From: a bacterium
GTDB lineage: Bacteria; Desulfobacterota; Binatia; Binatales; Binataceae
DNA: 64,000 nucleotides
Reading direction: 5' to 3'
Assembly: GCA_014896235.1 (NCBI GenBank)
Contig: JADBKU010000003.1
Coordinates: 1 to 64,000 of the forward strand
In this document: positions 27,577 to 33,402 of the stretch, piece after piece
How positions within the stretch are numbered: the stretch's first letter is position 1
Layout: each line of letters starts with the position of its first letter
The notes under the pieces: model-generated
Told to the model about the DNA's origin: nothing
The model's input: the letters and a program-made list of their open reading frames with translations, nothing else
Databases searched by the model: none
Program-made: the position numbers and the translations under genes

Positions 27577-28761
27577 CTAGCCGGCCTTGCTGGCTCCTGT
27601 GCGGTAACGGCCGCTGCGCCGGTTGGTAAGCAGCAAAGCACGCCGGCGAAAATCCACGCCGAAAGCGGCGCCCCAGGCGAACCACGACAACTTTCCGAAT
27701 ACCGCCAGCACCACCAGGAGGTAGGCGAAATCCCGTCCCGTCGCCTGCTCGATCATCCGAATCCACCGTTCGGCTTCGTCTCCGGCCGATTCCAGCGCCC
27801 GGTTGACCGAGATCGCGCATGCGCCAAACCCGCCCAGAAGCAGGCCGAGCAGCCAGAAATACGCGCGATCGTGACTGACACGGTAACATCCAATCAACAG
27901 TCCAATAAAGATCGCGACATGCACTAAATTGTCGGTAAATACGTCCAGACGCGCGCCGCTTTCCGATTCGACCATCCTGAGCCGCGCCAATTCGCCGTCC
28001 ACGCCGTCGATCGTGATTGAAGCCAGAAACAGGATTGCTCCGGCCAGCTGACTCCAATATACCGTCGAGGCAAACAAAAACGCGCAAAAGACGCCCAAAG
28101 CCGTATTCGCGAGCGTTACGAAATTCGGCGCTACGCCTAGCCGCGCCAGCGGATAGCTGATCCGCCATGACAACCGCCGGTCGATCATTTGGGCAAGCGG
28201 CGCGTCGGTGGAGACGCTCTCGGCGCGTACCGATCGCGCAAGGCGCAACTCCGCCTCCTGCCGGTCCTGCGGCCGCCCGTTGAGCGCGAAAGGCAGAAAG
28301 CCGCGCTCAGTCAGAATGGAGCCGACGCCGGTCGCTGGGTCGCTGAGCAGGGTCGCGAGCGGACCGAGTTCGATAGCGCCGCCCCGGTCGGCGTCGGTAC
28401 TGTCGATACGCATGCATTGCGAGGGGGCTTCGGCATACGCCTCGATCGCGCGGCGCAACTGCGACCGCGCCAAAACGAGATTTCCATAAAACGCGATCGC
28501 TGGCGTGGCGGCGGCACGTGCGTCGCCTTCCGCGGCGAAATGGCGGAAATCATCGACCAACGTGATTTCCGGCTTTCCGGCAAACGAGCCAAGCGCGCGC
28601 ACGATTTCGTTCGCAGGGGCGCCATGCGTTTCGATGATGAAACGGCGCACGCCCTCGCGCGTACAAAGCAAGAGCAATCGTTCGAGAAGGGGGCGTCCGA
28701 AAATCATGTCGGACGCGCGCGACGGGACGCTAATGAGCGCTGTTTCTATCAAAGTAGCCAA
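27577..28761 (-). CDS. CDP-alcohol phosphatidyltransferase with N-terminal NTP-transferase-like domain
   Basis: A 394-residue two-part protein. The C-terminal half is a membrane CDP-alcohol phosphatidyltransferase with the full motif D-x2-DG-x2-AR-x8-G-x3-D-x3-D: DGVDGELAR at 252-260, Gly269, Asp273 and Asp277. It is flanked by about six hydrophobic helices (215-370). The N-terminal 180 residues resemble a nucleotidyltransferase fold but lack a clear glycine-rich signature. The architecture recalls IPCT/DIPPS enzymes of inositol-phosphate solute or lipid synthesis. It is divergent from a separate, intact NTP-transferase operon at 29-33 kb. The product would be a phosphodiester between a lipid or polyol and an alcohol; the identity is unknown. 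Confidence 0.85.
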   Translation of the reverse strand: MATLIETALISVPSRASDMIFGRPLLERLLLLCTREGVRRFIIETHGAPANEIVRALGSFAGKPEITLVDDFRHFAAEGDARAAATPAIAFYGNLVLARSQLRRAIEAYAEAPSQCMRIDSTDADRGGAIELGPLATLLSDPATGVGSILTERGFLPFALNGRPQDRQEAELRLARSVRAESVSTDAPLAQMIDRRLSWRISYPLARLGVAPNFVTLANTALGVFCAFLFASTVYWSQLAGAILFLASITIDGVDGELARLRMVESESGARLDVFTDNLVHVAIFIGLLIGCYRVSHDRAYFWLLGLLLGGFGACAISVNRALESAGDEAERWIRMIEQATGRDFAYLLVVLAVFGKLSWFAWGAAFGVDFRRRALLLTNRRSGRYRTGASKAG

Positions 28762-28994
28762 ATTAAAACTAGGTTTTTAAGCGAATCGGACCGCGGAGTC
28801 AATGTAACCTGAGTGAAATAATTGATTCGCCGCACGCCCTCCCATCCCGGTTGCCACCCCGAACAATCGAATCACATTGCGGACGTAAGCGCGAGTATTT
28901 GAGAAATTTGGCATCGCACTTTCATTATGCCCTGTTGAAATTATCGCCGCGGCCGTCGAGACCGCCGGATCGGGCTGGTAAAATCTAGCGCACG

Positions 28995-29753
28995 ATGCGC
29001 GCGATTTTATTCGATTACGGCGGCACGCTCGATTATCCGCGCCATTGGCTCGACCGCTTCCTTGCGCATTATCAAGCGGCCGGACTCGGTCTCTCGCGCG
29101 CCCAACTCGATCGCGGGTTCGCCCACGCCACCCGCATGGCGTATCGCGCCACGGCGGATTTGCGCCAGTTCGGCCTTGAAGAAATCGTCAACTACCTGGT
29201 GAGGACGCAGGTCGCGTTCCTTGCCGACAACGGCGATTCGGTTACTCGCGGAGTAATTGCGGACGCGCGCCGGGAGGGTAGATTAGCCGAAGCGATGGCG
29301 CGGATTGTGGCTGGATTCGTCGCGGAATCACGGGCGGGGATGGAGGCCAGCCGCGCGGTTCTTTCCGTGCTTGCGCCACGTTATGCGATGGGCGTCGTAT
29401 CGAATTTCTATGGCAATCTGGAGCGCGTTCTGGACGAAGCGGGCCTCGGTGGTTTTTTCGCCGTGGTCGCGGATTCGTCGCGGGTCGGCAGCTTCAAGCC
29501 CGATCCGGGAATTTTCGCCTACGCGCTCGAAAAAATCGGCGCGCCGGCGCAATCCGCCGCGATGGTGGGCGATTCGATCGAGAAGGATTGCGCGCCGGCG
29601 CGGCGGCTCGGCATGACCGCCATCTGGTTGCCGGGAATCGACCGTCTCGACCGTGACTGCGTCGCCAATAACGCAAACGAGGTCGATTTCACGATTCGAG
29701 AACTTGCGGAGTTAAAGAGTCTGCAATGGCGATGCGAATCAGCGGAGCGATAA
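28995..29753 (+). CDS. HAD-superfamily hydrolase with atypical motif I
   Basis: A 252-residue HAD-like protein. Motif I is FDYGGTLD (nucleophile Asp7) with Gly instead of Asp at the +2 position, which in phosphatases is the general acid/base. A helical cap follows (about 15-95). Motif II is VVSNFYG, motif III is FKPDPGIF, and motif IV is MVGDSIEKDC. D-x-G-G-T-L is known in some HAD subfamilies with varied roles. It is the first gene of a five-gene co-directional run and overlaps the NTP-transferase gene by 28 bases. A phosphatase role on a sugar or polyol phosphate is plausible but weakened by the missing acid. Confidence 0.8.
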   Translation: MRAILFDYGGTLDYPRHWLDRFLAHYQAAGLGLSRAQLDRGFAHATRMAYRATADLRQFGLEEIVNYLVRTQVAFLADNGDSVTRGVIADARREGRLAEAMARIVAGFVAESRAGMEASRAVLSVLAPRYAMGVVSNFYGNLERVLDEAGLGGFFAVVADSSRVGSFKPDPGIFAYALEKIGAPAQSAAMVGDSIEKDCAPARRLGMTAIWLPGIDRLDRDCVANNANEVDFTIRELAELKSLQWRCESAER

Positions 29754-32922: not shown

Positions 32923-32925
32923 AGG

Positions 32926-33402
32926 ATGGAGCCGGACGCTGGAAATATCGCGCTGTTCTGCGATTTGTCGGGCACGCTCGCTGCGATGGACGAAAGCCGT
33001 CAACTGCCGATCGACGCGCGCGGCAATATCGTAATCCGGCTGCTGCCGAACGTGCGCGAGACGCTGCTGCCGATGCGCGATCATCTGATTTTCGTGGTTA
33101 CGAATCAGGCGGGGGTGAAGCGCGGACGTTTTTCGCTGGCTCAGGTCGAAGCGGCGATCGCCGATCTCGATCGCCAACTCGACGGAATCCTGACCGGATG
33201 GATGATCTGTCCGCACGACGACGCCGATCGCTGCGAATGCCGCAAGCCGAAAGGCGGCATGATCGCCGAGCTGGCGGCGACGCACGGCGTCGATCTGGCG
33301 GGATCGACGATGGTCGGCGACCAGGAGATCGATGAGATGGCCGCGAAGGCCGGTGGCGTCGGGCGTTTCGTTTACGCCGCCGAATTCTTCGGCTGGAAGT
33401 AG
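32926..33402 (+). CDS. GmhB/HisB-like HAD protein with altered motif I
   Basis: A 158-residue HAD protein of the histidinol-phosphate/heptose-bisphosphate phosphatase type (HAD subfamily IIIA). The zinc loop is CPHDDADRCECRKPKGGM (about 92-109), with Cys-x-His and Cys-x-Cys ligands. VVTNQAGVKRGRFS is motif II, and MVGDQEIDEMAA is motif IV. Motif I reads FCDLSGTLA: nucleophile Asp13 is kept, but the usual acid/base Asp at +2 is Ser15. It lies 3 bases after the aminotransferase and closes the operon. A phosphatase acting on a polyol or amino-alcohol phosphate is likely; the substitution makes activity uncertain. Confidence 0.8.
   Translation: MEPDAGNIALFCDLSGTLAAMDESRQLPIDARGNIVIRLLPNVRETLLPMRDHLIFVVTNQAGVKRGRFSLAQVEAAIADLDRQLDGILTGWMICPHDDADRCECRKPKGGMIAELAATHGVDLAGSTMVGDQEIDEMAAKAGGVGRFVYAAEFFGWK

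Follow-up and report, generated by a model that had tools for sequence, protein, structure and literature searches.

In the inositol-lipid route of Bacteroides thetaiotaomicron (BT_1522-1526) and mycobacteria, which consists of a phosphatidylinositol phosphate (PIP) synthase and a phosphatase, it is the lipid that is activated, as CDP-diacylglycerol. Like the system described below, this route makes an inositol lipid from the product of myo-inositol phosphate synthase (MIPS) and uses a CDP-alcohol transferase, but it passes through PIP, and neither an NTP transferase nor an ATP-grasp protein is part of its description in the available portion of the source. Closer to our subject is the putative alternative inositol-lipid cluster of Bacteroidetes, in which genes for an NTP transferase, a CDP-alcohol transferase and a HAD protein lie next to MIPS (Heaver et al. 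2022, PMC9246714). In B. vulgatus it corresponds to BVU_RS13095/13105/13115; its HAD was suggested to make phosphoinositol dihydroceramide (PI-DHC), which was detected by high-performance liquid chromatography-mass spectrometry in two species without the BT cluster (PMC9246714). In the proposed aminocyclitol route of hygromycin A, MIPS, a phosphatase, a Gfo/Idh dehydrogenase and an aminotransferase act in sequence (Hyg18, Hyg25, Hyg17 and Hyg8), and Hyg17 was assayed as a myo-inositol dehydrogenase (PMC10949010); that route yields an antibiotic moiety, and no CDP-alcohol transferase is described in the accessible part of the paper. Here we analyze a gene cluster at positions 27577..33402 of a 64,000-nucleotide stretch (the window; positions 1 to 64,000 of contig JADBKU010000003.1, our C23) of the draft genome GCA_014896235.1 (G000) of a member of Binataceae, class Binatia, phylum Binatota. 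The module genes in it are conserved, occur together and are lost together. We predict, in a judgment that we rate as evenly balanced, that five of them, together with a Gfo/Idh dehydrogenase encoded elsewhere and in step with MIPS, build a head group, likely an inosamine phosphate, and attach it to a membrane lipid; both the head group and its acceptor are what we infer.

The original prediction, made from the sequence of the window alone, had described seven genes here as a candidate head-group biosynthesis cluster, and all seven are indeed present and intact; the list below also gives the Gfo/Idh dehydrogenase from another contig:
27577..28761, minus strand: CDPAP, CDP-alcohol phosphotransferase, start codon TTG 28761 (or TTG 28752)
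28995..29753, plus strand: HAD1, HAD-IA hydrolase with a DxGGTxD motif
29726..30457, plus strand: NTPT, MobA-like/sugar-phosphate nucleotidyltransferase (PF12804/PF00483)
30495..31340, plus strand: ATPG, ATP-grasp protein with the metal-site motif GGD...DFNDWPSF
31525..32922, plus strand: AMT, class III pyridoxal phosphate aminotransferase (PF00202, 5.6e-97)
Contig C5 of the same genome, 39318-40328: Gfo/Idh dehydrogenase, beside TetR and HpnH genes
26226..27551, minus strand: B12-binding radical SAM protein, conserved neighbor
32926..33402, plus strand: HAD2, GmhB/HisB-N-like HAD protein with a D-L-x-G-T motif, downstream neighbor
The open frame of AMT begins at TTG 31438, and ATG 31525 is the more likely start. 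HAD1 and NTPT overlap by 28 bases and only 3 bases separate AMT from HAD2, as in an operon. A plasmid search with the cluster DNA (near mode) gave no match.

A genome scan with an ATPG alignment confirmed 525 stretches, of which the best 80 were kept. Of these, 19 are of Binataceae type (L002-L020), with four records bearing the name Candidatus Binataceae or Binatus and the others, labeled Deltaproteobacteria, Proteobacteria or uncultured, assigned by similarity; 60 are of Bacteroidales type, and a single one is from Bdellovibrionales. Since ATPG served to pick these loci, its own count is uninformative, and it is its company that informs. NTPT, AMT and HAD2 accompany ATPG in all 19 Binataceae-type loci (ATPG 19/19), HAD1 in 17/19, and CDPAP and the radical SAM gene in 15/19 each; in the Bacteroidales loci we found NTPT and CDPAP in 59/60 each, HAD1 in 54/60, a flippase-like gene in 18/60, and MIPS on the same fragment in 36/60. 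The NTP transferase, CDP-alcohol transferase and HAD encoded together at 27577-30457 of the window, as they are in the Bacteroidales loci, and the tie to MIPS are common to our module and the alternative cluster of Heaver et al., and the CDP-inositol route without a PIP intermediate proposed for that cluster and its nearby flippase-like gene are further points of likeness. Three features set Binatia apart: the additional AMT and Gfo/Idh genes, an extra N-terminal nucleotidyltransferase-like domain in CDPAP, and a MIPS gene that is unlinked. The term "ATP-grasp" does not occur in the main text of PMC9246714; the numbering of the BVU_RS tags allows one gene between NTPT and CDPAP, and in the Phocaeicola locus L034 that gene is ATPG.

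Since this core is common to the Bacteroidales clusters, in which neither AMT nor Gfo/Idh had a match (0/60 ATPG-selected loci), and two species carrying such a cluster were confirmed to have PI-DHC (PMC9246714), the module might simply make plain phosphatidylinositol, as proposed for Bacteroidetes, with the aminotransferase and dehydrogenase serving something else and co-inherited by chance. We consider this improbable in view of how the two genes are distributed. In a presence table of 96 genomes, G000 included (AMT at E 1e-120, Gfo/Idh at E 1e-30), ATPG was found in 48, AMT in 48 and Gfo/Idh in 50. AMT is present in 45/48 ATPG genomes (the two occur together in 45 of the 51 genomes with either), and in two genomes where Gfo/Idh is present and AMT was missed, G008 and G046, AMT is cut by a contig end. 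Gfo/Idh is present in 48/48 AMT genomes and in 47/48 ATPG genomes, the sole exception being G021; conversely, the three genomes with Gfo/Idh and without ATPG (G005, G011 and G086; completeness 83, 53 and 80%) all have AMT as well. The link between ATPG and Gfo/Idh thus holds despite their separate contigs in G000; elsewhere in Binataceae the Gfo/Idh gene lies downstream of HAD2. In 11 loci fetched from other Binatia families both genes are within the operon, in the order HAD1-NTPT-ATPG-AMT-Gfo/Idh-CDPAP (Gfo/Idh and CDPAP in 10/11; L118 stops within AMT). The Bdellovibrionales locus (L069, Bdellovibrionales bacterium GWA2_49_15) carries Gfo/Idh, MIPS, ATPG, CDPAP and a flippase gene on one strand, HAD1 and NTPT on the opposite strand, and then, back on the first strand, an AMT 47% identical to that of the window.

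Two natural fusions of a CDP-alcohol transferase domain with an AMT-like aminotransferase also weigh against plain phosphatidylinositol: P0214 (729 aa) and P0243 (752 aa), whose identity with the AMT of the window is 50% and 52% over ~440 residues. The transferase half of the fusion also matches proteins that combine an NTP-transferase with a CDP-alcohol transferase, one of which, P0251, is named in its source as CDP-L-myo-inositol myo-inositolphosphotransferase. The co-occurrence with ATPG and these fusions bear out the view of the original prediction that the aminotransferase is part of the set. Judging by its entry title, the phosphonate PntC-AEPT fusion (6pd2) likewise couples a cytidylyltransferase with an aminotransferase to provide an amino head group; it differs in its phosphonate substrates. 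The PntC-AEPT aminotransferase is from a different family than AMT. As a separate observation, the transferase half of the AMT-CDPAP fusion has further relatives in P0241, P0242 and P0244, in which a GtrA domain is fused to a CDP-alcohol transferase.

The module genes are also lost together, which again speaks against chance co-inheritance. In G013 and G032 the gene order is still PanC - radical SAM - HAD2 - TetR - HpnH - farnesyl diphosphate (FPP) synthase - alcohol dehydrogenase - squalene-hopene cyclase, with no match to CDPAP, HAD1, NTPT, ATPG or AMT between radical SAM and HAD2 and none to Gfo/Idh in the stretch; at the thresholds used, ATPG, AMT, Gfo/Idh and MIPS were not found anywhere in either genome. 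G021 appears half decayed: CDPAP is in two broken pieces, HAD1 is a stub of 22 residues, ATPG is still open, NTPT was not found at the locus, and AMT, Gfo/Idh and MIPS are absent from the genome. All three genomes are estimated to be 94-96% complete. Based on these joint losses we define the unit as CDPAP, HAD1, NTPT, ATPG, AMT, Gfo/Idh and MIPS.

The radical SAM and GmhB-like HAD proteins, which the original prediction had counted as members, were set aside as pathway members, because G013, G021 and G032 have kept both and have lost the other genes or hold them in broken form, save for ATPG in G021; they are probably conserved neighbors with another role. At E 1e-80 the radical SAM gene is found in 40/41 Binataceae genomes, including G011, G013 and G032, which lack ATPG, and outside Binataceae in 1/55 (38% identity). 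The two radical SAM matches among the 11 other-Binatia loci are both the HpnJ gene, and HAD2 has no match in any of the 11. The radical SAM protein scores far under every NCBIfam cut-off listed; it is 84-98% identical in 39 other Binataceae genomes, and even in genomes that have lost the module it still adjoins PanC and the hopanoid operon. In HAD2 the usual second Asp is missing (DLxGT) and, as in HAD1, this loss is conserved among relatives. Further downstream in the window, three tandem luciferase-like (LLM) oxidoreductase genes (34366-37198) are relatives of an LLM gene located between HAD2 and Gfo/Idh in other Binataceae.

The MIPS family (PF01658) scores above its cut-off in 57/96 genomes, including G000 (C64:68596), whose protein matches the solved inositol-3-phosphate synthase 1gr0 with 388 bits. 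MIPS is present in 43/48 ATPG genomes vs 14/48 without ATPG, and outside Binataceae in 9/11 vs 13/44. In G000 no pathway genes were found in the stretch read around MIPS (L112). Since the tblastn query from L069 misses the short MIPS of G000 (no match in L112), linkage was taken from the family search and the zero MIPS counts at Binatia loci were set aside. Neither the link to MIPS nor the dehydrogenase on another contig had been noticed in the original prediction.

Catalytic motifs are present in CDPAP, NTPT and AMT. The C-terminal membrane transferase domain of CDPAP keeps DxxDGxxAR-x8-GxxxDxxxD; this strict pattern fails in the Bacteroidales copies (absent from 59/59) because their last two Asp residues are four residues apart, and 54/59 fit once that spacing is permitted. 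The two-domain fold is that of IPCT-DIPPS / CDP-inositol phosphotransferases, and the structural model of CDPAP is predicted to be nearest to the inositol-phosphate transferases AF2299 and IPCT-DIPPS (4mnd, 4o6n), in keeping with the original claim of a conserved head-group cluster with NTP activation and a transferase of the inositol-phosphate kind. It differs from these archaeal proteins in that the N-terminal nucleotidyltransferase-like domain lacks the GxGxR...PK motif and a separate NTPT exists. The score in the window against the IPCT-DIPPS equivalog model NF041135 is far under the cut-off (58.8 vs 580 bits), which speaks for working like IPCT-DIPPS and not for membership in that family. 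NTPT, which matches NF041135 below the cut-off, has the AAGxGxR...PK motif in 18/19 Binataceae-type, 11/11 other Binatia, 0/1 Bdellovibrionales and 55/59 Bacteroidales copies, and is predicted to be a CTP:(amino)inositol-phosphate cytidylyltransferase. IPCT-DIPPS makes di-myo-inositol phosphate, and the resemblance of CDPAP to it and to AF2299 would suit a soluble compatible solute of this type instead of a lipid. This seems very unlikely to us: a PF03706 flippase-like gene (identified by Pfam or similarity) is present in 9/11 other-Binatia loci, in L069 and in the 18 Bacteroidales loci mentioned above, though in 0/19 Binataceae-type loci, the clusters adjoin hopanoid genes, and the Bacteroidetes relatives make lipids (PMC9246714).

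ATPG could be placed solely by sequence profile and structural model, as the single protein gave nothing useful against Pfam, NCBIfam and, by phmmer, the PDB. It has an ATP-grasp fold with a D-x-N metal motif, as in the ITPK inositol phosphate kinases; among the five PDB alignments listed, three ITPKs share D-x-N at the metal site and two ligases have E-x-N. The profile similarity to eukaryotic ITPKs at the D-x-N...PSF motif is weak and confined to parts of the protein: the ITPK domain PF05770 matches 3/43 ATPG members, below its gathering score (best E 0.038), and has no match in the window ATPG. We predict that ATPG is an (amino)inositol kinase. In inositol 2-dehydrogenases the catalytic residues are the lysine of EKP and D-x3-H. 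A sequence pattern search of the Gfo/Idh dehydrogenase, whose top NCBIfam match is inositol 2-dehydrogenase (IolG, TIGR04380), found EKP in 5/6, 9/10 and 1/1 copies, and D-x3-H as DHGWH in 4/6 and 6/10 and as DVSTH in 1/1; elsewhere the loose pattern matched another place or none. HAD1 retains the nucleophile Asp with Gly in place of the usual second Asp, and its DxGGTxD motif is found in 15/17 Binataceae-type, 11/11 other Binatia, 1/1 Bdellovibrionales and 54/54 Bacteroidales copies. In AMT (window 31438-32922) a four-cysteine motif, C..CP...C...C, occurs in 30/31 Binatia/Bdellovibrionales copies; the pattern is suggestive of a metal site.

In the route that we envisage, MIPS would convert glucose 6-phosphate to inositol 3-phosphate, inositol would be released by a phosphatase, either HAD1 or a general enzyme, the Gfo/Idh dehydrogenase would oxidize one ring hydroxyl to a ketone, and AMT would place an amine there to give an inosamine. 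ATPG, with its resemblance to inositol-phosphate kinases at the metal site, would then rephosphorylate the ring, NTPT would activate the product with CTP to a CDP derivative, and CDPAP would move the phospho-inosamine onto a lipid alcohol, which is more likely to be diacylglycerol than a hopanoid. As HAD1 has DxGGT and not DxDxT, the phosphatase may be another enzyme. By analogy, the first half of this route would copy the one proposed for hygromycin A and the second half that of the alternative inositol-lipid cluster. The Bacteroidales core, without AMT and Gfo/Idh, would lead to plain phosphatidylinositol, and there ATPG and HAD1 could shift the phosphate to another ring position.

Several observations weigh against this route. 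Five ATPG genomes (G004, G021, G025, G065 and G078) have no MIPS, and apart from the decayed G021 they are 89-93% complete. In Binatia MIPS lies on another contig than ATPG in 41 of 43 genomes and more than 250 kb away on the same contig in the other two, and its genome count pools two MIPS length types. The Fisher tests on co-occurrence ignore the kinship of the genomes and are a guide only; as the genomes are related, the values overstate independence. The scores of the Gfo/Idh dehydrogenase against TIGR04380 (80.5 and 76.2 bits) are far below the cut-off of 355, its nearest solved relative is an aldose-aldose oxidoreductase, and a solved inositol 2-dehydrogenase comes only 13th of 21. The role of HAD1 as a phosphatase is doubtful, because the usual second Asp is missing. 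Among aminotransferases adjacent to Gfo/Idh genes, the DegT type is the most frequent, with 15,139 vs 1,236 of class III (PMC10949010). Of proteins with solved structures, AMT is nearest to 4-aminobutyrate-type aminotransferases and to racemases of amino acids, the latter including alanine/serine and broad-range racemases, and in the structural model the fold of ATPG appears nearer to ligases (best matches RimK and Ddl/D-Ala-D-Ala ligases) than to the kinase PPIP5K2, which ranks 43rd, with no ITPK among the best 50 fold matches. These last similarities would fit a D-amino-acid or aminoacyl head group, with AMT as an amino-acid racemase and ATPG as a ligase joining the amino acid, which is close to the original idea that the ATP-grasp protein acts on the new amine. 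We give such a head group little credence: the 60 Bacteroidales loci have ATPG without an aminotransferase match, so action on a new amine is not supported, ATPG shares D-x-N with the ITPKs and does not have E-x-N as the two aligned ligases do, and the dehydrogenase and MIPS would be left unexplained.

The other counterweight to the inosamine route is the proximity of hopanoid genes. In 14 genomes, all from Binataceae, one contig carries both HpnH and ATPG, no more than 16 kb apart, and the hopanoid operon by ATPG comprises TetR, HpnH, FPP synthase, squalene-hopene cyclase, Dxr, HpnE and HpnA. At three of eight fetched Binataceae hopanoid loci (L136, L140 and L142) the picked open reading frames form an unbroken run on one strand; the other five are not readable as such a run, with opposite-strand frames picked at some, and L134 and L138 seem rearranged. 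In L140 (621-12758) dxr, FPP synthase and genes for a TetR regulator and for a Zn-alcohol dehydrogenase are part of the operon along with HpnH, squalene-hopene cyclase, HpnE and HpnA. An hpnK homolog adjoins the module in 4/11 other-Binatia loci, L119 has HpnJ above its cut-off, and an HpnG-like gene below the cut-off lies 11 kb from HpnH. Over the 96 genomes HpnH above its cut-off tracks ATPG (44 genomes with both, 4 with ATPG only, 23 with HpnH only and 25 with neither; p 4e-6). HpnO is said to be hard to distinguish from other class III aminotransferases (PMC12583986), and AMT is of class III. The cluster could thus be a hopanoid head-group operon, in which ribosylhopane would be the substrate of an AMT that works like HpnO, or phospho-inositol would be placed by CDPAP on bacteriohopanepolyol. 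We regard hopanoid decoration as unlikely. When the groups are taken separately, HpnH shows no association with ATPG in Binataceae (36/1/4/0 in the same order, p 1) and only a weak one elsewhere (8/3/19/25, p 0.10), and in 23 genomes it occurs without ATPG; AMT tracks ATPG and Gfo/Idh more closely than HpnH. G013 and G032 retain hopanoid genes after the loss of the module, and relatives of AMT have been fused twice to a CDP-alcohol transferase. L069 has AMT and the module with no match to squalene-hopene cyclase in its genome (completeness not stated), which makes its AMT unlikely to be a hopanoid enzyme. The adjacency leaves room for a hopanoid acceptor of the inosamine head group or for co-regulation.

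Literature searches by title and start of abstract, with most subscription journals outside their range, found, among the papers listed, none on an inosamine or aminoinositol phospholipid or on such a cluster, and those on Binatota/hopanoid/inositol and bacteriohopanetetrol (BHT)/inositol returned nothing on point. The original prediction, which knew of no named pathway with this set, overlooked that the NTPT/CDPAP/HAD core is already on record as a putative alternative inositol-lipid pathway (PMC9246714); on the whole that interpretation is partly supported. The core is of a known but unproven kind, and the amino branch, the joint losses, the split-off dehydrogenase and the ATP-grasp member are new as far as these searches show. 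We propose tentatively, as something rather more likely to fail than to hold, that a novel class of membrane phospholipid with an aminocyclitol head group, phosphatidyl-inosamine, is produced in Binatota and part of Bdellovibrionota. The enzymes would be MIPS, an inositol dehydrogenase, a class III aminotransferase acting on inosose, an ATP-grasp kinase for inosamine, a CTP:inosamine-phosphate cytidylyltransferase and, last, a Kennedy-type transferase for CDP-aminoinositol; as part of the same proposal, this ATP-grasp kinase would be the step that has been missed in the second inositol-lipid pathway of gut Bacteroidetes. If so, the ATP-grasp gene would join that pathway, whose description omits it, and the class III aminotransferase family would gain a concrete candidate substrate. 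An aminated inositol head group would be added to the known bacterial membrane lipids, in a candidate phylum, and such a zwitterionic inositol lipid would alter membrane charge as phosphatidylethanolamine does.

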